From assembly GCA_903831455.1 (NCBI GenBank), contig CAIKXV010000201.1, positions 1-64,000 of the forward strand: 64,000 nucleotides of DNA, given 5' to 3'. This DNA is from an uncultured Pseudomonadota bacterium. GTDB taxonomy: Bacteria > Pseudomonadota > Gammaproteobacteria > Burkholderiales > CAIKXV01. The notes below the pieces were generated by a model, which ran no database searches, was not told the DNA's origin, and saw only the letters and a list, made by a program, of their open reading frames with translations. Each line of letters begins with the position of its first letter. The first letter of the stretch is position 1. Below, in pieces: positions 1 to 32,720 of the stretch. The translations under genes and the position numbers were made by a program.

Positions 1-3000
1 GCGCTGGCCGAGGCGGTGCCATCGGAGACCTGCGTGGTCAGCGTGCGCGCGGCGGTGTTGTGCAGGGCGGTGGTGTAGGTGATGTTGCCGGCGGTGGTGA
101 AGAAGGCGTTGAGGGCCGCGGGAGTGCCGTCGAAGGTGCGGGCGGTGGCGGTGCCGGCGACGGTGACGCCGCCACCGGAGGACGCGGCCAGGACGCCGTC
201 GGCGATGGAGAGGGTGACGGTGAGGGTCGCGCTGTCGGCGTCGGCGAACGGCGTGCCGGTGTAGGTGAGGTTGCCGGCCACGTCCTCGGTGACGGTGAAG
301 CCCGCCGGCGCGCTGACCGTGGGCGCTGCAGCTTCCGTTCGGGCAGTCAATCGGTACGCGGCGATCGCGCCCGAGAAGGTGTTCCCATCCGAGAGGTAGA
401 AAGGCCGGCCTACTGCGGCCGAGGGTGTCGAGACCCCGAGGAAGATGCCGCCGACAGCGGACGAACTGTCGACCCGAAGCACATACGGGGTGTCGGACAG
501 CAGCGCAGGGTCGCCCACGTCGAACTCGTACCACCCGGCACCCTGCGCGATCGAGGAAGCCGTCAACGTCGCGGAGGCGTTCGCGGGTGGCGGGCTGGCG
601 TTGGCAAGCGGGGGCGAGTTCCACAGCGGGCGAAGCGACACGGTGATCATGTCCTCGGACGGTGCCGCGCCGTCGATGGAACCCAGCACGATGCCGACCT
701 TGATCCTCGAGCCGGCCGCAATGACGGTCGGTGAATCGATCTGCACGCGTTGTCCCCAGGACTGCCCGCTCTTCAGTTCAAACTGCGTCAGGTCCAGCGA
801 GGACAGTTGGGGGTCGTGCCCGGGCAGCACGGTCTCGTCCGGCGAACTGGCGAGAACGAGGGCTCGTTGCGAGATTGCCGGCGTCCCGTCGGAGACCTCG
901 ATCTCGACCACGCGGGTGGTCAGCGGGGCATTGGGTTCGGCGTTGTCGAAGGTCAGCGAGCGCAGGATCTGCCGGTAGCTTTCGATCGGAGCCTCGCCCA
1001 TCACCTCCAGGGTGCCGGTGGTCGCGTCGAACAGCCAACCGAGGCCGGTACCGGACGAATCGACCGATAGCACGTCGGACTCGCCCCCGGGCCGCTCGAG
1101 GAAACGCGCGGTCAGGCGAACGAGCATCGCACTGTCCACGTCGTCGAGGATCGCGTCGGAGTCGATGATCGAGGCCGGCCCGCCGCCGCGCACCCACTCG
1201 GGCTGGATGTTGCCCGCGGTGGCCTGCGAACTGTCGTCCGGGTCCAGGTCCATCGTCGGCGCGTCGTTGACGGGGGTCACCGTCACCGCAGCGCTGGCCA
1301 CGTCGCTGTTGCCCGAAGCGTCGGTGACGACGACCTTGAGCAGGCGGGTGGTCGCGACCGGGCTCTCGTGCTGTGTCGAGAACTGCAGGTGGCGCAGCAC
1401 GGCGTGGTGGGCTTCATTCGTCGCATCCGGTCCCTGCAGCACGATCTGCAACGGCGAGTCGACCGTGCCCGCACCGGTCACGTTGCCGATCAACAGGCCG
1501 TCGAGGACCGAATCGCGATACCACAGTACGTTGTTGCCGACGACGTCGATGCCGCCCAGCGTTCCCGGGGGGTCGCGACGCAGGCTGAGCAGGTCGCCGC
1601 TCACGCCGCCGGTGGCCAGACCGAAGGTGATGTGGAATGTCTCCGAGGCCAGCGAGTCGAGATCGGTGACGCTCGCAAGCCGGAACTCAATGGGCGCGGC
1701 GCCCTCCACGTGGACAGGGTCGTAGGCGCCCAGATCGAGCGAGGGGCCGTCGCCCAGTGGAGTGACCTGCAGCCGGCGAACGAAGATGTCGCCGACATCG
1801 TTGGCGAGGCTGCGCCAGCTGATCACTGCGCGCCCGTCGCGGAAGGCGACCGAGGGTTCTCGCTGGTCGCCCACCGTTCCCTGGTTGACGATGACCTCGC
1901 CGCTCAGCGGTCGCCCGTCTGGCGCGAACTGGCGCGCGATGATGGCGTGGCCGCTGCCATCCTGCAGGTAGCTCATCCAGCTCAGGACGAACTCGCCCGA
2001 AGCGCCCATGGCCAGCGATGCATCTCCCTGGCTGGAAGCCGTCGTCGTGTTGGCAAGGAAGCTGCTGCCCACCGGGACGCCCTGACTGTCGTAGAGCTGG
2101 ACCTTGAGCTCGGAGCCGAAGGCCGCGCCATTGGTGTCGGTCCAGGCAATCGCGAACCGACCGAAGGCGTCCATGCCTACGCTCGGGAACCCCAGGGCGC
2201 TGGGCACCGCCGCGACCTGGAACGTGGATCCAGCAGCCTGGCCAGTGCGATCGTAGCGAGCGGCGTAGATACCTGCTCCCGTCTCGCTCCAGGCCACGAC
2301 GAAATCGCCGTCGTCATCCATCGCGAGGGCGGGTTCGTACAGTTCGTTCCCGGTCGCGCGGTCGACGCGGATCAGGCCGGTGAGCGGGCTGCCGTCGGCG
2401 TTGAACACGCGCACGTCGAGCCGGGTTTGGTCGACCGAGATGGCGGCCAGCGCATAGCGACCGCTCTCCGGGGCCATCGCGATCGTGAGGCCGTGCTGGT
2501 CCGCGAATCCGGCGACCGCGTTGGCTGGCGAGCCGACCGCGGCGCCGGCGGCGTCGAACCGCTGGACCCAAATGTTCGAGCCAGTCCACGCGACCACGCT
2601 GTTTCCGGCGTTGTCCATCGCCAGCACGGGATACTTTCCCGGCTGGCCGAGCAGCGTGGGGCTGCCCGCGGCTGTTCCGTCGGCCTCGTACCGCTGGATC
2701 CGCGATTCCTCGATATCCTGCTCGAACCACGCGGCGACGAAGCGACCGCTGGCATCGAGCGCCACCGCCGGGCCTGCCCAGTTCGTCAACTGAACGTCAG
2801 CCGCGCTCGCGTGGACCTGCTGATCCGTGCCCTGGGCGATGAGGTCGAGCACGCCCTGCCATTGGGGGACGTCGAGCGTGGTGGTGTCGATCACGCCGGA
2901 CTGGATCTCGAGCGTCCAGTCGCCGCCGGAGCGTGCGTGGCCCGTCGGATCGTCGCTGGCCTTCACGTCGGCACGGGTGAGTCGCGCCAGCTCCGCGACC

Positions 3001-3623
3001 GCGGCGAGGCCGACCTCGCCCTGCGCGAAGTCGCAGCCGTAGATCAGCAGGTCGCCGTCCTGCGCGAGCGATGCCCCGAGGCGCTCGAGCAGTTGGCGGG
3101 TCTGCTCCGAGGGGAACGTGAGGTCCAGCCGGTCCGCGCCCAGTTGCATCGAGCCTGGCGAGGCATGCGCGATCAGGTGCACCGCCTGGATCCCGGATCG
3201 GTCGGCGAGCGCCTCGACCACCTGAAGCAGTCCGGACCGGTCGGCCCCGATCGTGACGACTTCGATGCCCCGTGCACGGGCGGTGTCGAACAGGGCTTCA
3301 GGCGCCTCGACTCCTGCGTCGACAAACAGGATCTGCGCGGCGGCGACTGTCGGTGTATCGGTAGGACCCGAGTCCCGGTCGGGTGTCAGGGCGCGAGGCG
3401 AGTCCATGCGTCCGACATCGATCCGCTCGCCGGGGGCGGGGGTCGACGCGGATGGCGAGGCTGTCGAGCCGGCATCCAGAGCCTCCTCGAACAGGCGCAC
3501 CTGCGCCACCTCTGCGTCCAGCGTTGCCCCCCATGGCGCAGGCATGTCGGTCGAATAGAGGACGCGGGATTCCAGCCACTCGAGCGAAGGGCGGATACGG
3601 GTGGGGGCGGGCCGACGTTTCAC
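1..3623 (-). CDS. Giant surface protein, partial (C-terminus beyond window): LEPR-XLL-like N-terminus, DUF4347 domain, then cadherin/VCBS-type repeats
   Basis: Minus-strand frame read from GTG at 3623 and checked open at both ends (3623 to about 2830, and about 1200 to 3). N-term MKRRPAPTRIRPSLEWLESRVLYSTDMPAP; then ILFVDAGVEAPEALFDTARARGIEVVTIGADRSG...AVHLIAHASPGSMQLG...LLIYGCDFAQGEVG...DVKASDDPTG (DUF4347-like); distal APTVSAPAGFTVTEDVAGNLTYTGTPFADADSATLTVTLS repeats. Absent from the ORF track because it runs off the window. Confidence 0.85.
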   Translation of the reverse strand, partial: MKRRPAPTRIRPSLEWLESRVLYSTDMPAPWGATLDAEVAQVRLFEEALDAGSTASPSASTPAPGERIDVGRMDSPRALTPDRDSGPTDTPTVAAAQILFVDAGVEAPEALFDTARARGIEVVTIGADRSGLLQVVEALADRSGIQAVHLIAHASPGSMQLGADRLDLTFPSEQTRQLLERLGASLAQDGDLLIYGCDFAQGEVGLAAVAELARLTRADVKASDDPTGHARSGGDWTLEIQSGVIDTTTLDVPQWQGVLDLIAQGTDQQVHASAADVQLTNWAGPAVALDASGRFVAAWFEQDIEESRIQRYEADGTAAGSPTLLGQPGKYPVLAMDNAGNSVVAWTGSNIWVQRFDAAGAAVGSPANAVAGFADQHGLTIAMAPESGRYALAAISVDQTRLDVRVFNADGSPLTGLIRVDRATGNELYEPALAMDDDGDFVVAWSETGAGIYAARYDRTGQAAGSTFQVAAVPSALGFPSVGMDAFGRFAIAWTDTNGAAFGSELKVQLYDSQGVPVGSSFLANTTTASSQGDASLAMGASGEFVLSWMSYLQDGSGHAIIARQFAPDGRPLSGEVIVNQGTVGDQREPSVAFRDGRAVISWRSLANDVGDIFVRRLQVTPLGDGPSLDLGAYDPVHVEGAAPIEFRLASVTDLDSLASETFHITFGLATGGVSGDLLSLRRDPPGTLGGIDVVGNNVLWYRDSVLDGLLIGNVTGAGTVDSPLQIVLQGPDATNEAHHAVLRHLQFSTQHESPVATTRLLKVVVTDASGNSDVASAAVTVTPVNDAPTMDLDPDDSSQATAGNIQPEWVRGGGPASIIDSDAILDDVDSAMLVRLTARFLERPGGESDVLSVDSSGTGLGWLFDATTGTLEVMGEAPIESYRQILRSLTFDNAEPNAPLTTRVVEIEVSDGTPAISQRALVLASSPDETVLPGHDPQLSSLDLTQFELKSGQSWGQRVQIDSPTVIAAGSRIKVGIVLGSIDGAAPSEDMITVSLRPLWNSPPLANASPPPANASATLTASSIAQGAGWYEFDVGDPALLSDTPYVLRVDSSSAVGGIFLGVSTPSAAVGRPFYLSDGNTFSGAIAAYRLTARTEAAAPTVSAPAGFTVTEDVAGNLTYTGTPFADADSATLTVTLSIADGVLAASSGGGVTVAGTATARTFDGTPAALNAFFTTAGNITYTTALHNTAARTLTTQVSDGTASAS

Positions 3624-5536
3624 GGCTCGGGTCCTATATCCAGTTCGAGCGACCGCATCCGGTCGCGCACGATCATCGCGCGGCGTACCGCACGCGCCCG
3701 ATGTTCCTCGCGCAACTGGGGGAGTTCGAGCAGGCGATCCGCCGACCAGCCGCGCAGCATGAACGGAAGGCGCGACAGTGCGCGCGCGAGGCCGACGCCC
3801 CAGGTTCGCAGGAACAGCGGCTGGAACCGATGCACCACGCGCTCGCAGGAGCCGGGATCTCCCTGCCGCGCGGCGCGGCCGTAGAGTTGCCGGTCGATGC
3901 GACGCGAACGATTGTGCTGGCAGGCGATCACGTGCAGTCCGCCGCTCGATTCGGCGTGCGGGTGCAACCGGATGTCGGTACCCCGCCCCGCCATGTTGGT
4001 GGTGAGGGTCACCTGCCCGGGTTGTCCGGCAGCCGCGATGCACGCAGCCTCGTCGGCATCCTGCCGTGCATGCAGGACCTGGTGGTCGATGCCGGCGCCG
4101 CGCAAGTGGACCGAAAGCCGTTCGGCATCGATCACGCTGTCCATCGCGACCAGCACCGGACGACCCCTCACCCGCATCTCGCGTATGCGCGCGATCACGA
4201 CCGCGGTCTGCTCCTCGGCGTCGGCGACCAGGCGGGTGGGCATCCGACGCAGGCACGACGGGCGGCGCAGCGGGATCCGGACCACCGGGAGTCCGTACAC
4301 CGATTCGAGCTCGCGCCGCTCCTCGCGGAGCGTACCGCTGGTGCCGGACAGGTGCAGGTACCGGGGGAAGAAGCGCTGGTAGGTGATCTGCGTCGCTGTT
4401 CGCGTCAGCGGCGGCAGGGGGCAGCCTTCCTTGAGGCAGACGAACGCGTGCAGTTCATTCGCCCAGATCCGACCGGGGGCTGCGCGCCCGGTGGCCTCGT
4501 CGATGATCTGCACGGTGCCGCCTCGCACCACGTAGTGGCGATCGCGCTCGTGCAGGTAGATGGCGGCCAGGGCGGTCCGCACGTATTCCTCGCGATGGCG
4601 GGCGGTGCGAAACGGCGTGGAAGCCGCGGGTCGGGCGTTCAGTTGCCGGGTCCCTTCGGCCGTGAGACGAGCGCTCCGCGCGTGCGTATCGAGGATGAAG
4701 TGCTCTTCGGGTTCGAGCGCGGTGGCGGCGTCGAGCGCGGCAGCCAGACGGACCTCGCGATCCGCGGCGGCAACGGGCGTCGACAGGATCAGCGGCATCA
4801 GCGCTTCGTCGAGCAGTACGCTGTCCGCCTCGTCCACGATGGCCATCCAGAGGCCGCGCAGCAGGGTGACTCTGTCGGCGATGGGCCGGGCTAGACGATC
4901 GACGCTCGCGATCAGCGGGGAGAGCGCGCGCGGACGCACGAGCCGATCGCGCAGGTAGTCGAACGCCAGCTCGCGCCCCGGGCAGTACGTGATGTCGCAG
5001 TCGTAGGCCTTCCGACGGAGCGCGGGCGCGCTCGCGCCGGTGACGACGCCGCAAGTCAGGCCGAGATGGTGGTAGAGCGGGGACAGGGTGCTCGCGTCGC
5101 GCTCCGCCAGATAGTCGTTGGCGGTGACCACGTGGACGGGGCGACCGGACAGGGCTCCGCACGCGGCCGCCAGAGCGACCGCCAGTGTCTTGCCCTCGCC
5201 GGTCGCCATCTCGACCAGGCGGCCGTCGAGCAGTGCGCGGGCGGCTTCCCGTTGCCCGGGGTAGGGGGTGATCCCCAGGCTTGCGCGGCACGCGTCGGCC
5301 ACGCGATCCAGCACCGCGTCCTGCGCGGCGCGATCGGCAAGATTGCCCGAGAGTCGCGCGCGAAGTTCGTGCAGCGGAAATGACCGGGCGCTCGCGTCGG
5401 CGTCCGTGCGCGCGGAACGTAAGCCCCGCAGCCAGGCCAGCGAACGGCGCGCTCGGTCAAGCGGACCGTAACGCGCGACCGGATCGCGTTCAGGATAGCT
5501 GCCCAGCAGCAGCGTCGAGGCGGGCAGGGCGTTCAT
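3620..5536 (-). CDS. SecA-like DEAD ATPase, shortened SecA paralogue (~638 aa)
   Basis: MNALPASTLLLG...; MATGEGKTLAVALAA (Walker A), VTANDYLAERD, IVDEADSVLLDEA (DEAD), TTNMAGRGTDIRL, QLYGRAARQGDPGS, all SecA-type motifs. Stop overlaps the GTG of the next gene (GTGA). Confidence 0.9.
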   Translation of the reverse strand: MNALPASTLLLGSYPERDPVARYGPLDRARRSLAWLRGLRSARTDADASARSFPLHELRARLSGNLADRAAQDAVLDRVADACRASLGITPYPGQREAARALLDGRLVEMATGEGKTLAVALAAACGALSGRPVHVVTANDYLAERDASTLSPLYHHLGLTCGVVTGASAPALRRKAYDCDITYCPGRELAFDYLRDRLVRPRALSPLIASVDRLARPIADRVTLLRGLWMAIVDEADSVLLDEALMPLILSTPVAAADREVRLAAALDAATALEPEEHFILDTHARSARLTAEGTRQLNARPAASTPFRTARHREEYVRTALAAIYLHERDRHYVVRGGTVQIIDEATGRAAPGRIWANELHAFVCLKEGCPLPPLTRTATQITYQRFFPRYLHLSGTSGTLREERRELESVYGLPVVRIPLRRPSCLRRMPTRLVADAEEQTAVVIARIREMRVRGRPVLVAMDSVIDAERLSVHLRGAGIDHQVLHARQDADEAACIAAAGQPGQVTLTTNMAGRGTDIRLHPHAESSGGLHVIACQHNRSRRIDRQLYGRAARQGDPGSCERVVHRFQPLFLRTWGVGLARALSRLPFMLRGWSADRLLELPQLREEHRARAVRRAMIVRDRMRSLELDIGPEP

Positions 5537-5598
5537 GGCGCACCTCCGCCAGCCGACGGGCCGGATGACGCGCGTGGAGTGTACGAGCGCGGCATCGT

Positions 5599-7746
5599 TC
5601 AGGTTCCCGACTCGAAGCGCCGCAGGAAGACCTGCCTGAGGGCGCGCAGGCCCTGGGCGGCCAGGGTCGACCAGCCGTGATCGAACCGGACCCAGGCCCG
5701 CCCCTCGACCCGAACAGTCGTCGGGGCGGCGACCCGGACCTCGATGTGGACATACGGGTCGGCTGTGCGCAGGCCGCGTTCGTCGAGCGGGTCGGTCTCC
5801 AGCGAGCCCGCACCACGGGCGCCGAGTGCCGCGGCGGGCAGTTCGCGCACCGCGGCCGGCATGTCGCGCACCATCTCCGCGGGATGTCGACGTATCGGAT
5901 CGTCGGCGAACCTCGCCTCCGCCCCGTACAGGCGGTTGCGAAGCAGTGCTGCCGCCGTCTCGGGCACGGCGGCTCGAAGCTTCAACGGGGACCGATCGAG
6001 GATGTAGCCGATGGCCTCGCCCCGGTGCGCCCATCGCCCAGCGAGGTCGTGGGCCTGGGGCAGCGCGAGGGACCCTGCAACCGTGGCGCGGATCTCCAGC
6101 CGCTCGAGGCGAGTCGCGAGGTCGTCGCGCTCGGTCAGGGCGCGGCGCAGCGCCTCCTCGCCGTCGCTGGCCCTCAGCGGGTCACGGCCGAGCTGGCCGT
6201 AGCGCTCGGCCTCGAGTTCGGCGATCCTGGCGAGCACCCGTTCGTGGCGGGCGCGCAGCGCCGGATCATCGAGCGTGAGGATCAGGTCGCCGGGCACGAC
6301 CGCGCTGCCATCGGCCTGGTGAACCTGCATCACCAGGCCATCGACTTCGGGACGAAGCGTACGTCCCTCGCCGGGCTGGACCACGGCGTGTGCGGTGGTG
6401 TACTCGGGCAGCGGCACGGCGATCAGGAGCGCGGACAGCGCGACCAACCCGGTCGTGGTGCGCCACCGGACTCGCGCATGCCACGGCGTCCCCTGGCTGT
6501 TCCTGAGCAGGTCACGGACCAGTGTCCATGCGGGCACGAGCACGAGCCCGACCAGGCTGCCGACGGCCACGGCCGCCCCGAGCACCGAGGAGAACGATCC
6601 GATCCAGACCGCGATTCCGGCCGCCAGCAGCAGTCGACACAGGAACGCGAGCGGGGCATGGAGTTCCAGCCACGCACGCTCGCCGGAGTTCGCGGCCGGT
6701 AGGTCGGACTCGGACTCCAGGCCTGCAAGCCGATGCCAGCGCTGTCGCCAGAGCCTCTGGCTGCGGCTGCCCAGCTGGGGCAGGTCCAGTGCCTCCGAGA
6801 GGATGTGGTAGCCGTCGAAGCGCAGGAGCGGGTTGGCATTGAACAGGACCGTACCGATGCCCGCGACGAAGAACACCGCGAGCGCGAGGTCGCGCACAAC
6901 GCCGGGCGAGGCTTCGTTCCAGACGAGCAGCGCCAGCGCTGCAAGGGCGAGATCCGAGGCGATTCCCGCGGAGGCGACGACCAGGCGTTCGCCGCGCCGG
7001 GCGAGTGCCGTCGAGTCCGACGCGTCCACGTAGGGAGACGGAACGAGCACGAGCAGCGACACGCCGGCCTCGGGCACGTCCGCGCCGAAGCGGCGCGCCG
7101 CCAGTCCGTGGGCCAGTTCGTGGAGGGCCTTGGCCGGGATGAACACCAGCCACGCGAGGAAGAGCATCCAGGGCGTCCCCATGCGCTGGGCAACCTGCGC
7201 CTGCAGTTCCGCTGTTGCGGGCAGGGCAAGCGCGACGGCGCCCGCGACCAGAAGGATCCACCCCAGCCATCCGACGCGGCTGAACAAGACACGCCCCAAC
7301 GGGGCCATTCGATCCAGGAGCGGCGTGGGCGATCCCAGGGGTACGCGCAAGGCCAGCGGATTGATTCTCTCGCGCATTCGCCGCGCGGCCTGGCGACCCC
7401 GCCGCCAGGCCCGCGAGGCGAAATCCGGAAGGACGTCCATCGTCACCATGCCCTGCGCCACCAGCTGCCCGAGCAGGTGGACGATCTCATCCTGGGTCGG
7501 CAGATCCTCGCCCGCGACCTCCGCGAGCCGATCCCAGGTCTGCTCGACCGTGCGCGCGCCATCCAACCGGCCGACGAACTGCCAGGCCTGCGGGTTGAGA
7601 CGGCAGCGCTGACCGGAAATCGGATCCGACAGCACATGCCAGATTTCGCCGCGCGTGACCTGGCGGCTGATCTGGATGCTGGAGCGCAGCCGTGGCCTGC
7701 GTTCGGCCACGCGATGCCACACGGGGCTGAAGAGGCTGCTGGTCAT
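5599..7746 (-). CDS. PqqD-like domain / M50-type membrane zinc metalloprotease / biotinyl-lipoyl (HlyD-like) fusion
   Basis: N-term QISRQVTRGEIWHVLSDPISGQRCRLNPQAWQFVGRLDGARTVEQTWDRL (PqqD-like); KALHELAHGLAARRFGADVPEAGVSLLVLVPSPYVDASDS (HExxH, M50); FNANPLLRFDGYHIL; C-term ...VQPGEGRTLRPEVDGLVMQVHQADGSAVVPGDLILTLDD (lipoyl/HlyD). ATGA overlap with the upstream gene. Confidence 0.85.
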   Translation of the reverse strand: MTSSLFSPVWHRVAERRPRLRSSIQISRQVTRGEIWHVLSDPISGQRCRLNPQAWQFVGRLDGARTVEQTWDRLAEVAGEDLPTQDEIVHLLGQLVAQGMVTMDVLPDFASRAWRRGRQAARRMRERINPLALRVPLGSPTPLLDRMAPLGRVLFSRVGWLGWILLVAGAVALALPATAELQAQVAQRMGTPWMLFLAWLVFIPAKALHELAHGLAARRFGADVPEAGVSLLVLVPSPYVDASDSTALARRGERLVVASAGIASDLALAALALLVWNEASPGVVRDLALAVFFVAGIGTVLFNANPLLRFDGYHILSEALDLPQLGSRSQRLWRQRWHRLAGLESESDLPAANSGERAWLELHAPLAFLCRLLLAAGIAVWIGSFSSVLGAAVAVGSLVGLVLVPAWTLVRDLLRNSQGTPWHARVRWRTTTGLVALSALLIAVPLPEYTTAHAVVQPGEGRTLRPEVDGLVMQVHQADGSAVVPGDLILTLDDPALRARHERVLARIAELEAERYGQLGRDPLRASDGEEALRRALTERDDLATRLERLEIRATVAGSLALPQAHDLAGRWAHRGEAIGYILDRSPLKLRAAVPETAAALLRNRLYGAEARFADDPIRRHPAEMVRDMPAAVRELPAAALGARGAGSLETDPLDERGLRTADPYVHIEVRVAAPTTVRVEGRAWVRFDHGWSTLAAQGLRALRQVFLRRFESGT

Positions 7747-9221
7747 GGGAACCACGTGCCGGCTGACCACAGTCGGAGGCGTATCCAGTCGATGAGCCAG
7801 CGCCCCCAGGCGATCGCAAGCGCGCTGCGCCCGGCGTCGAATCGCACCTGACCCTGGAGGCCCGGCCGCATGCTGGCCTGTGCGCCGTCGGCGGGGGCCG
7901 CCTCGACCTCGTAGAAGGTGCGGCCGTCGCGACTGGTGGCGACGGGCGAGCGCCTTTGCACGGTGACGGCGAAGCGCTGCGAGGGCAACGCCGTGAGCAC
8001 CAGGGTGCCCTGTGCGTCGCCCGGGAGGCGCCCGATGTCGCGCTCGTCGATCTCGGCGATGACCCGATGGCGTCCCTCCGGAGCTACGGTCAGCAGGACC
8101 TCGCCGCGCCTGACCGGCGCCCCGAGCGACTGCGAGAGGTCGCCGCGGATGAGGACGCCGTCGAACGGCGCCACGAGCCGGCTGCGCGCGATCTGCGCCT
8201 CGACCCGGTCGAGGTCGGCTCGTGCCTCGGCGGCTCGGGCGAAGGCGGTCGCGTACTGGGCCCGATCGCCGCGCACCAGCGCGTTGCGGTAGGCGTTCTC
8301 GTGCTGGCTCAGCAGCGCGGTCCAGCGATCGCGCTCGAGTTCGAGATCCTCGCGCGCCATCTCCGCGAGCACCTGGCCTGCGCGGATGGTGTCGCCTGGC
8401 CGGGCGTGGACGGCACCGAGGAAGCCATCGACCGGCGAGACCAGGGTGCGCTGCAGTTCGCCTTCGATCCGGGCCGGTGCGCCCACGCGGTCGGAAACCG
8501 GCAACACGGCGATGGCGAGGACCACCGCCGCGACCAGCCATCGGGTACGCTGCCGCGCACGTCGGTCCTCTGGCGCGCGCTTCCATTGCAACCACGCCCG
8601 CTCGATCGTTCCCGCCTCCGCGATCTGGCGCAAGGCCAGCACGGGCGCGAGGGACGCGAGGATGTCGGGCGCCAATCCCAGGCCATGTGGGTCGGGGTGC
8701 GACAGGGCGTGCTCGAAGGTCACGGCACCCAGCGCCCGCTCGCCGTCGATGAGCGGCACGGTCGTGAGGCGGGTCTGCGAGAGGCGCGCGTACTGGGCAT
8801 GCAACATGCGTATGCGGGGCGACTCGGCCTCCTCGCCAGGCCAGCGGATCACGGCCGCCTGGTCGATGGACTCGTCCATCGCCTGTTCGAGGGCATTGAC
8901 TCGCGAGGCGCCCGCCTGGAGTTCGGGCTCGGCCGAGCCGGCGATCAGGCGAACCGTGCGCCCCCTGCGTAGCCCGATGGACACTCGCTCTGCCCCATAC
9001 GTCCGCGCGAGTTCGGAGGCGATCGCGGCTGCGCCGAGCGCAAGGTCGGGCTGGCCGTGGAACAGGGCTTGCAGGTGCAGCGCGAGTTCGAGCGGGTTGA
9101 TCGAGCGCGCGGCCTCTTCCGGTACCGGCGCGGCTACCGAGGATCCGGGGGAACGGCCGTCCGCGCGTTCGGACCTGTCATCGATCGATCGAGCGGCATC
9201 GGGACGGGTTTGATCGGTCAT
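7743..9221 (-). CDS. GAF-domain-containing HlyD-type periplasmic adaptor
   Basis: N-terminal GAF-like segment, TM WLVAAVVLAIAVLPV, then ARIEGELQRTLVSPVDGFLGAVHARPGDTIRAGQVLAEM and RSRLVAPFDGVLIRGDLSQSLGAPVRRGEVLLTVAP (HlyD/lipoyl). Confidence 0.85.
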   Translation of the reverse strand: MTDQTRPDAARSIDDRSERADGRSPGSSVAAPVPEEAARSINPLELALHLQALFHGQPDLALGAAAIASELARTYGAERVSIGLRRGRTVRLIAGSAEPELQAGASRVNALEQAMDESIDQAAVIRWPGEEAESPRIRMLHAQYARLSQTRLTTVPLIDGERALGAVTFEHALSHPDPHGLGLAPDILASLAPVLALRQIAEAGTIERAWLQWKRAPEDRRARQRTRWLVAAVVLAIAVLPVSDRVGAPARIEGELQRTLVSPVDGFLGAVHARPGDTIRAGQVLAEMAREDLELERDRWTALLSQHENAYRNALVRGDRAQYATAFARAAEARADLDRVEAQIARSRLVAPFDGVLIRGDLSQSLGAPVRRGEVLLTVAPEGRHRVIAEIDERDIGRLPGDAQGTLVLTALPSQRFAVTVQRRSPVATSRDGRTFYEVEAAPADGAQASMRPGLQGQVRFDAGRSALAIAWGRWLIDWIRLRLWSAGTWFP

Positions 9222-9568
9222 GGAGGGCTATTTGACAGGCCAGGCTCGCGACCCGGGAGACGTTCGGATGAAACGCTGGTGTGCGGATGGTCGGCAGAAT
9301 GTCACGGGGGCGACACACTGGCCGGTCGGGCCGGGCGTCCCCGGCGAGCGTGGCTGGCCACCGCCTTTTATCGGCAAAACTGTGTAATTCTTCCGCTTGC
9401 TAGATGCCAAAACAAGGAAATATGCGGCACCCGCGATCCGCGAGCAGGCGTCTGGTCGCCGATTCGGCGGGCAGACGCGACGTAACCCCGCCGTCCCCGG
9501 GTTTGTCGTCCGCGGTGCCGGGCCCGTCCGGACACCCGGGCCAGACCGCTGCGGCGGGCGGAGTACCC

Positions 9569-10558
9569 ATGAAGGCACGTTTCGTACACAGTATGGCAGC
9601 CGCGCTGCTGACGGTCGCCACCGCGCCGGTCACGGCGCAGTCGGATTTCGAGTGCATCATCCAGCCGCGCCAGGTGCTGGAGATCCGCAGCCCGATCGAA
9701 GGGTTGATCCAGCGCGTGCACGTCGATCGGGGCCAGTCGGTCAGGCGCGGGCAGGTGCTCGCGACCATCGACGATTCGGTCGAGCGCGTGGCCGCCGAAG
9801 GGGCGCGGCATCGCGCAGCCATGACCGGTGCGCTCCAGGCCGCCGAGTCGAGGGTGCTGGCCAGCACCCGCAAGCTCGCGCGCGTCGAGGAGCTGGTGGC
9901 GAGCAAGTTCCTGTCCGCGCAGGCGCTGGACGACGCCCAGAACGAGCGTCGGCTGGCCGAGGCCGAACTGCAGGAGGCGCGCGACGGGCGGCGGCTGGCC
10001 GAGATCGAGTTCAACCGGCAGAACGCGATCATTCGCCTTAAGACGGTGCGCAGTCCGGTCAACGGCGTCGTGGTGGAGCGGCTGCTCAACACGGGTGAAC
10101 TGGCCGAGGCCGGCGTCGGGCGCAGGCCGATCCTGAGGGTGGCCGAAATCGACGTGCTGCATGTCGAGGTGCTTCTGCCAGCCGATGCGTGGAGCCAGGT
10201 GAAGCCGGGTGCGGCCGCGCAGGTCCAGCCCGCCACGGGCGGGCCATCGCGTGCCGCGACCGTGGCGGTCGTCGACCGATTGCTCGATGCAGGCAGCGGG
10301 ACGTTCGGGCTGCGCCTGGAGTTGCCCAATCCCGGCCACGAGATTCCCGCAGGCGCCCGCTGCCGTGTTCGGATCGAGGGTGTCGCGCTTGCTCCGCGTC
10401 GTGCTGCGTCCGGCAGCGCGTCCGGGGCGCCCGCTGCCGGCGCGATGTCCCAGCCGGGCGCGGCCGGGACTTCGACGACCGCGCCGACGGGGACGTCCCC
10501 CCAGGGGTCATCCGTGGCGCCGCGCCCGGGCAGCGCAGTCCGACCGACGGGATCCTGA
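9569..10558 (+). CDS. HlyD/RND-type periplasmic adaptor (membrane fusion protein)
   Basis: Signal peptide MKARFVHSMAAALLTVATAPVTAQ; IRSPIEGLIQRVHVDRGQSVRRGQVLATID; coiled-coil; VRSPVNGVVVERLLNTGELAEAG. Confidence 0.85.
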   Translation: MKARFVHSMAAALLTVATAPVTAQSDFECIIQPRQVLEIRSPIEGLIQRVHVDRGQSVRRGQVLATIDDSVERVAAEGARHRAAMTGALQAAESRVLASTRKLARVEELVASKFLSAQALDDAQNERRLAEAELQEARDGRRLAEIEFNRQNAIIRLKTVRSPVNGVVVERLLNTGELAEAGVGRRPILRVAEIDVLHVEVLLPADAWSQVKPGAAAQVQPATGGPSRAATVAVVDRLLDAGSGTFGLRLELPNPGHEIPAGARCRVRIEGVALAPRRAASGSASGAPAAGAMSQPGAAGTSTTAPTGTSPQGSSVAPRPGSAVRPTGS

Positions 10559-25587: not shown

Positions 25588-26409
25588 TCAGCCCTCGTCG
25601 CTTGCGGACGGACCTGCGCGCAGCGCACCTACCGGGTAGGCCGAGAACTCGGCAAGCAGGCGCGCGATGCGCGGCGCCGCGACTTCGATCATCCGGCGAC
25701 CGGCCTCGGCGGTGGCCAACGTGGCGTCTCCACAGGCGCCCGACGGGTGCAGGTCCTGGGTCGACCACGCAAGGGAGACCCGGCCGTGGAACCGCAGTTC
25801 GCGGGCCTGCGTCTCGAGGTCGATGGAGGCGGGTCGAAACGCGGCGATCCGATCCTCGCGAACCGATGCGGGCGCGAGGTGCCGCATGAGCGAGGTTTCC
25901 GCCGCACCGGCGTGGATGCCGTGCCGCCATTCCTCTTCCGGGAACAGGCCCTCGGGCTCCCCGAATGCGTAGGTGCTGGCCACGACGACCAGCATCGAGA
26001 GGCGGCTGCGGAGGTCCTGGGCAACGACCCGCGCGAGGGCGGCCTGGCCACCGTGCGAGTTGAAGATGACCAGCTTGCGAACGCCAGCCGCGTGCACGGA
26101 TCGGGCGAGTTCGGTCCACACGGCCGCCAGCGTCGAGGCGGACAGCGACAGCGTTCCGGGAAAGGCTGCGTGCTCGGCGCTCGTTCCCACCGGTTGCATC
26201 GGCAGGACCAGTACCGGCACATGCTCGGGCAGGCGATCCAGCGCGGCCTCCAGCAGCCCGCTGTTGATGCGCGCGTCGACATCGAGCGGCAGGTGGGGGC
26301 CATGCTGTTCGATTGCCGCGACCGGAAGCACCGCGACGGTGGCCTCGCGGTCGAGTCCGGCGAAGTCGGTCCAGGTGAGATCCTGCCAGCGGCGGACGGG
26401 TAGGGACAT
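25588..26409 (-). CDS. Creatininase family protein
   Basis: AVLPVAAIEQHGPHLPLDVDARINSGLLEAAL...VIFNSHGGQAALARVVAQDL...HAGAAETSLMRHLAP. Confidence 0.9.
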   Translation of the reverse strand: MSLPVRRWQDLTWTDFAGLDREATVAVLPVAAIEQHGPHLPLDVDARINSGLLEAALDRLPEHVPVLVLPMQPVGTSAEHAAFPGTLSLSASTLAAVWTELARSVHAAGVRKLVIFNSHGGQAALARVVAQDLRSRLSMLVVVASTYAFGEPEGLFPEEEWRHGIHAGAAETSLMRHLAPASVREDRIAAFRPASIDLETQARELRFHGRVSLAWSTQDLHPSGACGDATLATAEAGRRMIEVAAPRIARLLAEFSAYPVGALRAGPSASDEG

Positions 26410-26697
26410 TGCGGACTCCGGGGTCGTCAGGCGCGTGTCGGAACCGGCGGGCGCGTGCCGCGACAAACGCGGGGACGCGGCCGGACGCGCGCACTATCGC
26501 ACAGCATCGACCGGCGCGAGGTGGGTCCGGACGCTGGCGTGCGCCTGCATCCTGGCGAGTGCGCGTGCTCCACGACCATCGATGCGCGAGTGCAGGAGTC
26601 GGCGTTTCGCGAGGACGGCGCGGGGGGCTTTTGGTACAGTGCACCGATCCCTGTCGGGTACCCGCGCCGTGTCGACACGGCCCTCCGGAAGCGAGCC

Positions 26698-29600
26698 ATG
26701 GCCCAGCGAATCACACGCCGCACGAATGAGATCGGTGCCGAAGGCGAGCCCGTCCTGCGCACCGATGCGAGCCCCGGGACGGCAGCCCCGATTGCGTCGC
26801 TGGCGGGTGCATCAAGGCTCGCCGGTTCGCGGAAAGCGGCATCGCCGTTGCGCGGGGTCGGGATCGACGAGGCCGATCCGTCCGCGCCGGCAGCGAGTTC
26901 CGATGCCGGCGGACGACCGGCTGCCGAGTCCGCCCCCGACCTGTCGATCGCGTCGATCGTCGAGACTGCGGTCGACCGCGCGCAGGGGGCGTCCGCGCCG
27001 CTCGCGAACGTCGACGCCCCGTTCATCGTCGCGCAGACGTCCGGTCCCGGCGGATCGGTGTTCGATGCGGGGATGCCGCCGCGGGCACCGGCTCCGGCCG
27101 CCGGGACTGCGGCGGCAGCAGCCGCGGGCGGCGGCGCCTCGCTGGGCACGGTGCTGATCGCCGCGGTGGCTCTGGGAGCGGCTGCGGGCGGCGGGGGGGG
27201 CGGGGGTGGATCGTCCGGCGCGGCGCCGGCGGACACGACGCCGCCGGCGGCGCCGGTCGTCAATACCGTTGCCGGGGATGATCGGGTCAACGCGCTGGAG
27301 AAAGCGAACGGGATCACCATCACCGGCACCGCCGAGGCGGGTTCCACGGTCTCGGTCACGCTCGGCACGTCGACCCGGACGGCCGTCGCGTCCACCGGAG
27401 GCGCATGGTCGGTCGACTTCGCCGCGGCCCAGATTCCCGCGGATGGCGCGGTGTCCGTGCTGGCGACCGCGCGAGATGGCGCAGGAAACGTCAGCGCTCA
27501 GACCTCCCGTGCGATCGTGATCGATACCGCACCGCCCGTGCTTCAGTCCGTCCAGATCCAGGCGGCGCCCGGGGCCCTGCTGCTGACCTACAGCGAGCCG
27601 ATCGATTCCACCAGCCTGCCGGCAGGGTCGGCCTTCTCGGTCCTGGTCGACGGGGTCGGGCGCGGCGTCACGGCGGTCAGCGCGGCCGGTGCCGTCGTGA
27701 CGCTCGCTGTGGTGGGCGACATCGCGGCCGGTGCGGTCGTCGAGCTGGCCTATACCGACCCGACAGGCGGCAACGACGGACTGGCCATCCAGGACCTCTC
27801 GGGCAACGACGCTGCGTCGGTCAGTCTGTCGAGTGGGCTGGTATCGGACGGCTACCTGCGTGGAGCCGACGTCTATCGGGATACCGATGCCGATGCGCTG
27901 GCCGATGCCGGCGAACGGGTGGCGGTCTCCAATCGCGCAGGCCAGTTCTTCGAAGCCAGTGGCGGCACGGGCGCCTGGCTGGCCCGGGAGGGGGTCAATG
28001 CCGACACGGGTGTCGTGAACACGATGGAACTTGCGGCGCCCGCGAACGCGACCGTGATCAACCCGCTCACCACGATCGCGCAGGCGATGCGCTCGCTGCC
28101 CGATGGACCCACCGACGCGTCACAGGCGGCCGCACTGCTGGTCGCCGCGCTTGGACTGGAGCCGGGCGATCGAGGGCTCTATGGCACGGATATCGTCGCC
28201 GCGGCCGGCGAGGCCCAGCGCCTCGCCCTGCAACTGGCGGCACTCGATGCCCAGGGTGGGGGGGCGGCACTGGTGGCACTCGTCGCGGCGGACCTGCTGC
28301 AGGCCGGTACCGTCCGGCAGGCGGTGGCGCCGGAGGACTCGTTCTTCCTCTCGCGCGTGCTGGCAGCGCTGCCCCTGTCCCAGGCCAGCGTCGTCGCTGA
28401 CGCGGTGACACGGATAGGGCTTGCAGCCTCGATCCCGGAGGCCACCCTTGCGCAGGGCCGGGCCCTGGACGACATCGCGCCCGCGGCCCCGACCGGCGTG
28501 ACGGGGCCCGTCGCCACCCAGGACACGACGCCGACCCTCACCTTCGCCATCGATGCGACCTCGCTCGGCGGCGCGGCCGCGGTCGCCGGCGATCGGTTGA
28601 CCGTGTTCACGGTCGCGGGGACCGCACCGCCCATCCCGATCGCGAGCCACGTGCTGACCGTAGCGGAGGTGGCCGCGGGCGAGGTCGCGATCACGTTGCC
28701 GGCGCTCGCCGACGGGGCCTATACCCTCCAGGCACGCGTGTCCGATCGCGTCGGCCTCGAAAGCGGGCTGTCTGCGCCGCGGGCGCTTCGCGTCGATACC
28801 CAGTCGCCGCTCGCGCCCGTCGTGCTTCCGGTCGCCGGGGACGACATCATCGGAACCGCGGACGTGGCGACCGCGGCCATCAGTGGCGGGAGCGAGCCGG
28901 GCGCCACGATCACGATCTCGTTCTCCGGCGTGCAGCGTACCGCGACGGCCTCGAGCACCGGCTCGTGGAGCCATTCGCTCACCTCGGCCGACCTGGCGAT
29001 CATGGGTCAGGGCAGCGAAACGATCGCTGTCGTGGCGACCGATGCCGCGGGCAACGTATCCGGATCGACCACGCGCGAGATCGACGTCGACACGGTGGCG
29101 CCTTCGGCGACCGTGGTCATCGGACAGGTGGTGAACGATCTCGGGATCGCCGTGGCGAATGGTCAGTCGACGCCCGACAACACGCTCGAACTGCGAGGGA
29201 CGGTGTCGGGCACGCTGGGCGCCGGCGAGCAGGTCTCGATCTTCGAGAGCGGGGTGCTGCTCGGCACGACCAGCGCCTTCGGAGGAGCGTGGTCGTTCCA
29301 GACCCCATCGCTTGCAAACAACCGCTTCAACGAATTCACCGCGCGCGTGGTCGATGCCGCCGGAAACAGTGGCGCGCCCAGCGCAGCCTATCGGGTCGAC
29401 GTGGCCGCTCCCGTGCCGTTCACGCAGGCGCTCATCGGAACGCCGCCGGGCGTTGTCGCCATTGGCCAACCGACGGTGAACGGGACGGTCACCCAGCCTC
29501 TCGCGCCCGGGGAAAGCGTGTGGTTGTATGACGCCGGCGCGCGGACTGCGGATGCGGTGACGTTCACCGACGAGACCAACTGGACGTACACGCTTCCCGA

Positions 29601-31374
29601 TCTCGGGGAAGGAGTACGCCGGCTGCGCGCGGTGGTGGAGGACTCGACCGGCAACCAGGGGGTACCCAGCGCCGAGACCGTGCTGACGATCGATACCACG
29701 GCTCCGACCGCGCCGGTGATCGACGTCGTGGCCGACAACAACCAGATCAGTGCCGCCGAGCGCGAGGCGGGCGTAACCGTACGCGGCAGCGCGGAGCCCG
29801 GTAGCGAGGTGACGATCCTCCTGGCGGCCCTCTCGGCCCAGATCACGACTGCGGCCAACGGCCAGTGGTCGGTCGTGTTCTCGTCGGGCGATATCCCGGC
29901 CAGCCCGGCGTCGAACGTGACGCTGACGGCGACCGCCCGCGACGCTGCGGGTAACGTCTCGGCGCAGGGAGTCCGAACGGTGCAGGTGGATACCGTGGCG
30001 CCTTCGGTCGTGCTGTCGCCGGCAGGGGGGGGTGACAGCACGCTGTCGACCGCAGACCTGGTCGCCGGAGCCGACTTCAGCGCGACCGCGGCAGGCGCCG
30101 CGGGGGTCCTCCTCCAGATCGACCTGTCGGGGCGCAGCATCCTGCGCGCGATGACCTCGGCCGGCGGCAACGCGTGGCAGTACTCGCTTGTCGAGGCGGA
30201 TCTCGCCGCAGTCGGCCAGGGTACGGCAACCGTGCGTGCCCGCGCCTACGACGCGGTCGGCAACATCGGCACGGAATCGGTGCAGAGCGTGACGTTCGAC
30301 TCCCTGGGGCCGGAACTGTCTCCGTTCTCGCTGTCGGCGGGCTTCGACTCCGGCGTGGCGGGAGACGGTCGCTCCACCGCGCCGCGGCCGCAGGTGGGTT
30401 TCGTCGCGGAGGCAGGTGCCACCGTGGCCTTCGATCCCGGCACCGGCGTGTTCGGAGCCGCGTTCGCCGCCACCGGGGCAGTCCAGTCCGCGCAGGGGAC
30501 GGCCGATCTTCCCGCCGCAGGCGCCTACACGCTGCGCCTGCGTGCAACCGATGCGGCCGGCAACACCAGCGAACGAGTCGCGACGTATGTCTTCGACGTG
30601 GGTGCGCCCGAGATCGCCCATGCGCAGCGCGCGGGCGCGGGGGTGACGCTGACCGCCAGCGAGGCCCTGCAGCCCGGCTCGGTCGATCCGACCACGTTCG
30701 CGGTGACAGTCGACGGGGCCGGGGTTGCCAGCCCGGCCAGCGTGCAGGCCGACGGGCGGTCGCTGTCGGTGACGCTGGTCTCGGTACCCGGCGCCGCCCA
30801 GAGCGTGTCGCTCGCGTACACGCCGGGCGCAGGCGGATTTGCCGATGCCTCTGCAAATGCGGCGACGGCGTTCCTGGCCCTGGTCGGGACCGTGGGCGCC
30901 GATGCCCTCACGGGCTCCGCAGTCGACGAACTGCTGGTCGGCGGAGCAGGGGCCGACACCCTGGTCGGTGGCGGCGGCAACGATACCTTCTCGTTCGCCC
31001 TGGCCGAGGCGACCGCGATCGGCGAGGGCAGCGGGGCGCCCGGAAGCGTGCAGTGGAACGTCGGTCCGCTCGATCGGATACTCGACGCCGGTGCAGGCGA
31101 TCGCCTGCGACTCGATGCGCTGCTCGACACGCCCGGCGGGCTGTCGCTGGCGCCAGCGGGCACGACCAGCCTCGCCGATGCAGGCATCATCGCGGTGCGC
31201 GGCGTCCACGATCCCGTCGGGGGCACGTTCACCGAATCGTCATCCGGTTCGGCCACACTGGTCGCGTGGGATGCAGATCCCGACTCGGGCAGCGTGGTCG
31301 CCGCAGGTATCGTGATCGATGGGGTGGTGTCGTTCACCCCGGGCGTGGTGCCCGGTCTGTTGCTGATCGTCTGA
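26698..31374 (+). CDS. Large Ig-like-repeat/RTX adhesin, predicted type I secretion substrate (~1558 aa)
   Basis: Repeats such as APVVNTVAGDDRVNALEKANGITITGTAEAGSTVSVTL / APVIDVVADNNQISAAEREAGVTVRGSAEPGSEVTIL; Gly-rich N-terminal segment; C-terminal GADALTGSAVDELLVGGAGADTLVGGGGNDTFSFALAEA (RTX nonapeptides, T1SS target region). Confidence 0.88.
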   Translation: MAQRITRRTNEIGAEGEPVLRTDASPGTAAPIASLAGASRLAGSRKAASPLRGVGIDEADPSAPAASSDAGGRPAAESAPDLSIASIVETAVDRAQGASAPLANVDAPFIVAQTSGPGGSVFDAGMPPRAPAPAAGTAAAAAAGGGASLGTVLIAAVALGAAAGGGGGGGGSSGAAPADTTPPAAPVVNTVAGDDRVNALEKANGITITGTAEAGSTVSVTLGTSTRTAVASTGGAWSVDFAAAQIPADGAVSVLATARDGAGNVSAQTSRAIVIDTAPPVLQSVQIQAAPGALLLTYSEPIDSTSLPAGSAFSVLVDGVGRGVTAVSAAGAVVTLAVVGDIAAGAVVELAYTDPTGGNDGLAIQDLSGNDAASVSLSSGLVSDGYLRGADVYRDTDADALADAGERVAVSNRAGQFFEASGGTGAWLAREGVNADTGVVNTMELAAPANATVINPLTTIAQAMRSLPDGPTDASQAAALLVAALGLEPGDRGLYGTDIVAAAGEAQRLALQLAALDAQGGGAALVALVAADLLQAGTVRQAVAPEDSFFLSRVLAALPLSQASVVADAVTRIGLAASIPEATLAQGRALDDIAPAAPTGVTGPVATQDTTPTLTFAIDATSLGGAAAVAGDRLTVFTVAGTAPPIPIASHVLTVAEVAAGEVAITLPALADGAYTLQARVSDRVGLESGLSAPRALRVDTQSPLAPVVLPVAGDDIIGTADVATAAISGGSEPGATITISFSGVQRTATASSTGSWSHSLTSADLAIMGQGSETIAVVATDAAGNVSGSTTREIDVDTVAPSATVVIGQVVNDLGIAVANGQSTPDNTLELRGTVSGTLGAGEQVSIFESGVLLGTTSAFGGAWSFQTPSLANNRFNEFTARVVDAAGNSGAPSAAYRVDVAAPVPFTQALIGTPPGVVAIGQPTVNGTVTQPLAPGESVWLYDAGARTADAVTFTDETNWTYTLPDLGEGVRRLRAVVEDSTGNQGVPSAETVLTIDTTAPTAPVIDVVADNNQISAAEREAGVTVRGSAEPGSEVTILLAALSAQITTAANGQWSVVFSSGDIPASPASNVTLTATARDAAGNVSAQGVRTVQVDTVAPSVVLSPAGGGDSTLSTADLVAGADFSATAAGAAGVLLQIDLSGRSILRAMTSAGGNAWQYSLVEADLAAVGQGTATVRARAYDAVGNIGTESVQSVTFDSLGPELSPFSLSAGFDSGVAGDGRSTAPRPQVGFVAEAGATVAFDPGTGVFGAAFAATGAVQSAQGTADLPAAGAYTLRLRATDAAGNTSERVATYVFDVGAPEIAHAQRAGAGVTLTASEALQPGSVDPTTFAVTVDGAGVASPASVQADGRSLSVTLVSVPGAAQSVSLAYTPGAGGFADASANAATAFLALVGTVGADALTGSAVDELLVGGAGADTLVGGGGNDTFSFALAEATAIGEGSGAPGSVQWNVGPLDRILDAGAGDRLRLDALLDTPGGLSLAPAGTTSLADAGIIAVRGVHDPVGGTFTESSSGSATLVAWDADPDSGSVVAAGIVIDGVVSFTPGVVPGLLLIV

Positions 31375-31484
31375 GGCCTTTTCGCCCACGTTCCGGGAAA
31401 CGCATGCCGTCGATGGGATCCTGCGATGTTCCGGAACGCGACCGATGGCGCGAGGGGGCTGCGCCGGAGCATTCCGCGCGGCGT

Positions 31485-32720
31485 ATGACTGCCATGCGCG
31501 CGCTGTTGCTGATGGCCTCCGCGCTTGCCCTGTTCGCGGTCGCGCCGGCGCGATCCGAGGACGATCTCACCCGCCTGCTTGCGCAGGCGATGGCGACCCA
31601 CCCGATCGTCGAGGGCCGACGCGCTGCGCTCGAGGCCTCGCGCGCCGACCGCGAGGGCGCGGAGTGGCAGCGGTTTCCGACGCCCTCCCTCGAGGCCACG
31701 ACCCGGGATTCGGGCACCTCCGCCAGCCTGCTCGCGCTCGAGCAGCCGGTGTGGACGGGCGGTCGGATCACCTCCGGGGTACGCGCGGCGGGCTTTCGCG
31801 AGGACGCCGCGCGCTCGGCGGTGGTCGAATCGCAGGAGACGATCGCCCTTCGGGTGATCAACGCGTACAGCGAACTGCTCCGTCAGCAGCAACGCCTGGT
31901 CCATGCCGAGGCTTCGGTGGGCGAGCACGACCGTCTGCTCGCGATGATCACGCGGCGGGTCGAGCAGGAGGTGAGCCCGCCGGCCGATCGTGAATTCGCG
32001 CTCGCGCGGCTGGCGCAGGCGCGCATCGAGCTGTCGCTTGCCCGTCAGGGCGTTCAGGCGGCGGGCTCCCAGCTCTCGCAACTGGTGGGCCAGCCGGTCC
32101 GGCAGGTCGCCGATCCCGCCCCCGGCGCGCGTCCGCTGCCGTCTTCGCTCGATGCCGCCGTTGCCCGTGCGATCGAGCGTTCCCCCGCGCTCGAGCGGCT
32201 CGATCGCGCTTCGCTCGCAGCGGTCGAGGATGTCAATACCCGGCGCTCGGTGCTGCAGCCGCAGCTCGCGCTGAGGCTCGAGAAGCAGTTCGGTACCCTC
32301 GCCGACAATCGCGCGCTCGTGGTGCTGCGCGCGCAGCCGGGTGCCGGCCTGTCGGCGGCCTCGTCGGTGGCCTCGGCGCAGCGCCGGGTGGATGAAGCCC
32401 GTCTCGCCCGCGAGGAGGCGGTACGCGGGCTGCGCGAGCAGGTGGAGACCGCCTGGGTGCAGTACGCGGCGGCCGAGGAGCGGGTAGGGGGATCGAGGCA
32501 GTCGGTCGAGATGTCCCGCCTCGTTTCCGAGTCCTACGCGCGCCAGTACGTCGCGGGCCGCAAGACGTGGATCGACGTGCTCAACGCCGTGCGCGAGGCG
32601 ACCCAGTCGCAGTTCGCGCTCGCCGATGCGCTCGCTCAGTCGCGGGCCGCTGGCCTGACCCTCTGGCTGCTCACGGGATCCCCCGAGTCCGGGCGGCCGG
32701 GAGGGGGGACGCGGCCATGA
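31485..32720 (+). CDS. TolC-family outer membrane protein
   Basis: Signal peptide MTAMRALLLMASALALFAVAPARSE; LEATTRDSGTSASLLALEQPVWTGGRITSGVRAA; coiled-coil TolC repeat; C-term SYARQYVAGRKTWIDVLNAVREATQSQFALADA. Confidence 0.88.
   Translation: MTAMRALLLMASALALFAVAPARSEDDLTRLLAQAMATHPIVEGRRAALEASRADREGAEWQRFPTPSLEATTRDSGTSASLLALEQPVWTGGRITSGVRAAGFREDAARSAVVESQETIALRVINAYSELLRQQQRLVHAEASVGEHDRLLAMITRRVEQEVSPPADREFALARLAQARIELSLARQGVQAAGSQLSQLVGQPVRQVADPAPGARPLPSSLDAAVARAIERSPALERLDRASLAAVEDVNTRRSVLQPQLALRLEKQFGTLADNRALVVLRAQPGAGLSAASSVASAQRRVDEARLAREEAVRGLREQVETAWVQYAAAEERVGGSRQSVEMSRLVSESYARQYVAGRKTWIDVLNAVREATQSQFALADALAQSRAAGLTLWLLTGSPESGRPGGGTRP

Follow-up and report, generated by a model that had tools for sequence, protein, structure and literature searches.

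A recurring and apparently undescribed proteobacterial gene block that joins a truncated SecA, a PqqD-M50-HlyD membrane protein and LEPR-XLL-tagged giant proteins

The stretch of DNA analysed here (hereafter the window; 64,000 nucleotides, from base 1 of contig C201) opens with the following genes and features, given in window coordinates:

7743..9221, minus strand: GAF-HlyD adaptor, 492 aa, with a GAF domain at residues 65-178, a predicted transmembrane helix at residues 226-244 and an HlyD barrel-sandwich/hairpin C-terminal of this helix
5599..7746, minus strand: PqqD-M50-HlyD protein, 715 aa, with a winged PqqD-like domain at residues 37-101, a multi-transmembrane M50 part and a C-terminal adaptor half
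3620..5536, minus strand: mini-SecA, 638 aa, comprising NBD1-PPXD-NBD2 and the start of the HSD long helix
3..3623, minus strand: giant DUF4347 protein, N-terminal 1,207 aa, running off the contig start
3546..3575, minus strand: LEPR-XLL-type motif LESRVLYSTD, residues 17-26 of the giant, behind a basic leader
2877..3332, minus strand: DUF4347 domain of the giant (Pfam match)
9569..10558, plus strand: HlyD2, a divergent HlyD/RND-type periplasmic adaptor, 329 aa (domain search)

All junctions reported in the initial annotation proved exact to the base: the GAF-HlyD and M50 genes overlap by ATGA (7743-7746), 62 bp separate the M50 gene from mini-SecA (ATG at 5536, stop at 3620), mini-SecA and the giant gene overlap by GTGA (the start codon of the giant being the GTG at 3623), and HlyD2 starts at 9569 with a signal-peptide-like stretch. 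Its calls of HlyD, M50, SecA and DUF4347 domains likewise held up in Pfam, which recovered the HlyD domains of the adaptors, Peptidase_M50 (3e-7), SecA_DEAD (PF07517, 7e-73), PF21090 (4e-36) and SecA_PP_bind (PF01043, 2e-18) in mini-SecA, and DUF4347 (PF14252, 148-151 bits, 3e-43; gathering score 24.6) in the giant, a member of this family of which only 1,207 aa are visible at the contig start. The PqqD match of the window M50 protein (6e-4) and the GAF match of the window GAF-HlyD (1e-3) were weak, the latter being clear in the orthologue from a relative (5e-13), and the part called 'lipoyl' turned out to be the barrel-sandwich of an HlyD adaptor and no lipoylation domain. No TolC is in view within the window, and the host genome encodes one ordinary SecA beside the mini-SecA.

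The mini-SecA aligned with housekeeping SecA through NBD1, PPXD and NBD2 and ended about 30 residues into the first HSD helix, without the two-helix finger, the helical wing and the zinc tail. It retains the Walker, DEAD and GRGTD/GRxxRQG motifs and the substrate clamp (SecA motifs were present in 59-65 of 66 mini-SecA members), and a PPXD block of the form [VI]DExTGRxxxxRxWxxxLHxxxxxKEG is conserved among its kind. Against TIGR00963 it reached 408 bits (cut-off 800), and it stayed under every SecA/SecA2 equivalog cut-off; its AlphaFold model (pLDDT 82) retrieved SecA structures first in Foldseek, including SecA-N68 and SecY-bound SecA (7.6e-46 to B. subtilis SecA), with the best superpositions on SecY-bound conformations (TMq 0.79-0.81). 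We regard it as a clear SecA homologue which shares with SecA2 an association with special substrates, and which differs from SecA and SecA2 in forming a single clade apart from the housekeeping proteins (26 in our tree) and in stopping at the HSD. The NBD1-PPXD-NBD2 content is shared with SecA-N68, an artificial E. coli truncation (PDB 5k9t), from which mini-SecA differs in being natural, in carrying some 30 residues of the HSD helix, in its N-terminus and in being encoded in an operon. SecA-N68 is reported not to translocate alone and to keep tight SecYEG binding, constitutive ATPase activity and signal-peptide binding, the translocation by SecA needing the helical scaffold/two-helix-finger half (PMC5603524).

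This resemblance, the conserved PPXD block and the fit to SecY-bound conformations all speak for the main rival to the reading that we prefer below, a Sec-coupled role in which mini-SecA would dock on SecYEG through its preprotein cross-linking domain and work with housekeeping SecA (as SecA2 does with SecA1), the tagged giants would pass the ordinary Sec channel, and the M50, HlyD and TolC components would act only after inner-membrane passage. We hold such a role possible, if somewhat unlikely: the giants have no hydrophobic signal peptide, HlyD/TolC parts are usually paired with a one-step pump, and mini-SecA tracks the M50 protein in both position and descent.

The window M50 protein carries the zinc motifs HELAH and NANPLLRFD and has multiple transmembrane segments, as expected of an M50 site-2 protease. 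Both HExxH and NxNP...D were intact in all 73 type-A M50 proteins (the two types are defined below), and HExxH was intact in 23 of 23 type-B proteins. In its model a winged domain at the N-terminus is followed by membrane helices and by a C-terminal half that resembles MacA/MexA; no phage homologues were found. A PqqD-like domain and/or an HExxH membrane protease is shared with the daptide/YydH PqqD-M50 proteases (NF041824, NF058609), from which the protein differs by its C-terminal HlyD half, its block without tailoring enzymes and its scores below the cut-offs. The match to NF041824 (daptide_HExxH; 139.9 bits) could suggest a RiPP-like peptide maturation locus with a daptide-type protease and PqqD, to which the giant would be a mere neighbour. 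We find this scarcely credible, since the equivalog cut-off is 300 bits, tailoring enzymes do not recur and a tagged giant adjoins the block in every locus whose contig reaches far enough to show it.

The core triad (GAF-HlyD, PqqD-M50-HlyD and mini-SecA) is a tight recurring operon, found in the same order in dozens of loci, mostly with gaps below 100 bases and commonly with 4- or 8-base overlaps. Among 60 relatives, in which mini-SecA was told from housekeeping SecA by score (>=390 versus <280 bits) and frame length, we recovered 14 mini-SecA genes, adjoined by M50 and GAF-HlyD genes in 13 of the 13 loci with readable flanks; 13 further loci (12 from Zoogloea, one from Rhizobacter) hold GAF-HlyD, M50, mini-SecA, HlyD2 and the giant in a row where the contig allows. 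The triad was thereby seen in order in 26 loci of Zoogloea and other Burkholderiales. HlyD2-related adaptors belong to the same operon in Zoogloea and in alphaproteobacteria, and the 12 top-scoring named alphaproteobacterial plasmid records all contain both mini-SecA and a type-A M50 gene. The operon was present in the type-A plasmid stretches examined (with TolC and HlyD in Methylosinus), the annotated examples running giant, DUF3467, GAF-HlyD, PqqD-M50-HlyD, mini-SecA and HlyD, followed in Methylosinus by TolC. The small DUF3467 protein lies between giant and GAF-HlyD in many type-A loci (e.g., L160, 11863-12144). TolC genes adjoin type-A blocks in Methylosinus and Thalassospira and also occur within type-B blocks. 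Random neighbourhoods had been set beforehand as the outcome that would speak against a joint system; the association proved non-random, with a triad that recurs and co-evolves.

A profile of the M50 protein found matches in 93 of 399 Pseudomonadota genomes, in a high-scoring tier (type A) and a low-scoring one (type B). In this survey mini-SecA was present in 37 of the 39 readable type-A M50 loci (at 744 bits in locus L110, for instance) and in none of 20 low-tier type-B loci; three further type-B loci (contig C222 of the host genome, Azospirillum and an E. coli plasmid) also lacked it (0/23 in all). The type-B block consists of TolC, HlyD, HlyD and M50 genes, and no mini-SecA was found elsewhere in the 20 genomes searched whole (2 with SecA-less type-A loci, 18 with type-B loci). 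The window block shares its genome with a type-B system on C222 (L008, 2161-17634), made up of a second DUF4347 giant (3,089 aa), TolC, HlyD, HlyD and M50-HlyD, with no SecA. The E. coli IncFIA/FIB plasmid NZ_CP081687.1 (44829-64580; L173/L174) carries a type-B set with an Ig-like giant of 4,459 aa (tag LESRQLFDGA), TolC, HlyD, HlyD and M50-HlyD.

A function of mini-SecA as generic motor of the system is excluded, since it is missing from type B and from three type-A loci. The initial proposal that the SecA-like protein drives export of the giant is accordingly not established: the sister type B and the three type-A loci persist without it, and the protein is devoid of the half with helical scaffold and two-helix finger on which translocation by SecA depends (PMC5603524). 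That systems can manage without mini-SecA, and that its two-helix finger and helical wing are missing, would also suit a protein that is no translocation motor, working instead as an unfoldase or as a regulatory ATPase to hold the giant in solution or to time its synthesis; export would then draw its energy from the proton-motive force or from folding outside the cell driven by calcium. We judge this distinctly unlikely, as the motifs and the clamp that mini-SecA has kept suggest work on polypeptides and its linkage to the M50 gene is strict. For the Sec-coupled role, in turn, it counts that housekeeping SecA is still present where type-B systems lack mini-SecA.

In the M50 tree a fully supported branch separates type B from the rest, and a single gain with two losses (three changes) accounts for the distribution of mini-SecA on this tree. 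The SecA-less type-A M50 proteins (L120, L123 and L162) sit on long end branches (0.86-1.04, versus a median of 0.33), as if they had been freed from their partner or had re-adapted after its loss. The distances of mini-SecA, M50 and GAF-HlyD correlate with one another (Mantel r 0.93-0.96) and, in genomes with two systems, each set keeps its own partners; judged by their sequences, the three proteins are co-evolving as one system.

The remark in the initial annotation that the cluster has no ABC ATPase extends to the recurrent block, beside which no recurrent ABC gene was found in the Pseudomonadota survey. As in the type I secretion systems of giant adhesins (LapBCE, BapA, SiiCDF), a giant repeat adhesin stands beside HlyD adaptors and a TolC-type channel, which occur across the blocks (TolC not being visible in the window); the blocks differ in encoding no ABC exporter with the adaptor, in the N-terminal LEPR tag of the giant, and in the fused PqqD-M50-adaptor membrane protein and the mini-SecA. 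A classical T1SS-like cluster does lie in the window (26404-35976, plus strand), some 17-25 kb from the mini-SecA block, and comprises a Big_13/RTX adhesin-like ORF (1,656 aa stop to stop), an LssB-like ABC exporter (802 aa) and an HlyD. This cluster, and the likeness of the C222 giant to BapA/LapF-type adhesins, could point to export by type I secretion through an ABC pump provided in trans, the block merely processing or anchoring the giant; with no ABC gene recurring beside the blocks, and with the window ABC exporter having a likely substrate and an adaptor of its own, we consider this very improbable.

All readable N-termini of the giants show a basic leader, in which no stretch is strongly hydrophobic (no hydrophobic signal peptide), followed by a LEPR-XLL-type motif, for which two consensus forms emerged: [ILMF]-[ED]-x-R-x-[LMF]-[LYFH]-[SNA]-[AGT] in type A and L-E-x-R-x-[LMVI]-[FL]-D-[AG]-A in type B. 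The fourth residue after the arginine is Ser, Asn or Ala in 33 of 33 type-A tags and Asp in 18 of 18 type-B tags (Fisher 4e-14, and 2e-9 once kin had been roughly collapsed; both values overstate independence, since the surveyed loci are kin). This perfect match of tag type and machinery type, read from the sequences, ties the two together. As the three SecA-less type-A loci still have a type-A tag, the tag follows the M50 type and not mini-SecA, which makes the M50/PqqD protein the candidate tag reader. The LEPR-XLL model NF012209 (LEPR-8K; members score above 17 bits close to the N-terminus of a long protein), which names the tag only, is matched by the type-A giants of relatives (26-33 bits) and misses the window giant despite its LESRVLYSTD. 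In the open-access papers searched we found neither a link of the NF012209 tag to M50, HlyD and mini-SecA nor the distinct type-B tag LEPRxMFD[AG]A, and no open-access paper was found that joins DUF4347, LEPR, M50, HlyD and SecA; the gene block, which recurs in many proteobacteria, is apparently undescribed. At the other end of the giants, an IxW motif (RIQW, RIDW, LIDW and others) lies 4-62 residues from the C-terminus in about half of the type-A giants (those of G065, G073, G123, G162, G214, G339, G356, L064, L065, L067 and L103) and was seen towards this end in none of the type-B giants; as a distinguishing feature of type-A giants it was set aside as too weak.

The giants of SecA-less loci measure 1,699-4,459 aa (n=21) and those of SecA-bearing loci 1,968-15,434 aa (>4,500 in 16 of 23), every giant above about 4,500 residues in the loci measured being accompanied by mini-SecA. 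A perfect split by length is ruled out by the mini-SecA-accompanied giants of Zoogloea (2,064-5,179 aa) and G423 (1,968 aa), and the link to length is therefore one-sided; the distribution nevertheless suggests a role for mini-SecA when the substrate is very long. Two open frames, 15,251 and 15,434 aa in length and both with the tag LEDRILLSAE, stand beside type-A blocks (L124+L225+L226 and L127+L227+L228), and the same genomes (G065 and G073) hold further giants of 14,920 and 11,649 aa.

We reason that the block is probably a dedicated export/processing system for LEPR-XLL-tagged giant surface proteins, in which mini-SecA is, as the best reading of its distribution, an accessory ATPase. The giant would be made with a basic leader and a LEPR-x-L-L-S-[AG]-[DE] tag in place of a Sec signal peptide; the perfect co-variation of tag and machinery types suggests that the PqqD-like/M50 membrane protein is what reads the tag, and the protease site of this protein probably cuts off the leader or sets the substrate free. 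By their architecture, the adaptor half of this protein, GAF-HlyD and HlyD2 may together span the periplasm up to an outer-membrane channel of the TolC type, the M50 protein taking the place that an ABC or RND pump has in known tripartite exporters. Mini-SecA would act as a cytosolic ATPase that clamps and feeds the unfolded polypeptide, and its distribution suggests that the longest substrates require it and that short ones can do without; more speculatively, the GAF domain probably gates the machine through a small ligand. Several points weigh against this explanation: loci without mini-SecA exist, so that ATP drive may not be essential; the independent losses of mini-SecA number only two; the window giant is incomplete and no TolC is in view; the PqqD assignment of the window M50 protein has a weak Pfam score; and mini-SecA also accompanies shorter giants (about 2,000-5,200 aa in Zoogloea and G423), leaving the length link one-sided. 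A SecYEG-independent trans-envelope exporter, in which a SecA-derived motor feeds the tagged and unfolded polypeptide into a channel built around the fusion of intramembrane protease and periplasmic adaptor, and the tag is recognised in PqqD fashion, seems to us rather unlikely.

To our knowledge, the export of proteins of 5,000-15,000 residues without a Sec signal is largely unexplained in bacteria, and the block offers a concrete candidate machine, with a two-flavoured address tag, for such giant export. Current annotation masks the system, its genes being labelled as DEAD/DEAH helicase, prepilin peptidase, HlyD or PqqD proteins; Zoogloea, Ensifer and Methylosinus are genetically approachable hosts. 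What the motor core of SecA does alone is a long-standing question that has so far been approached with the artificial N68 fragment, and a naturally occurring SecA that lacks the scaffold half would reveal it.
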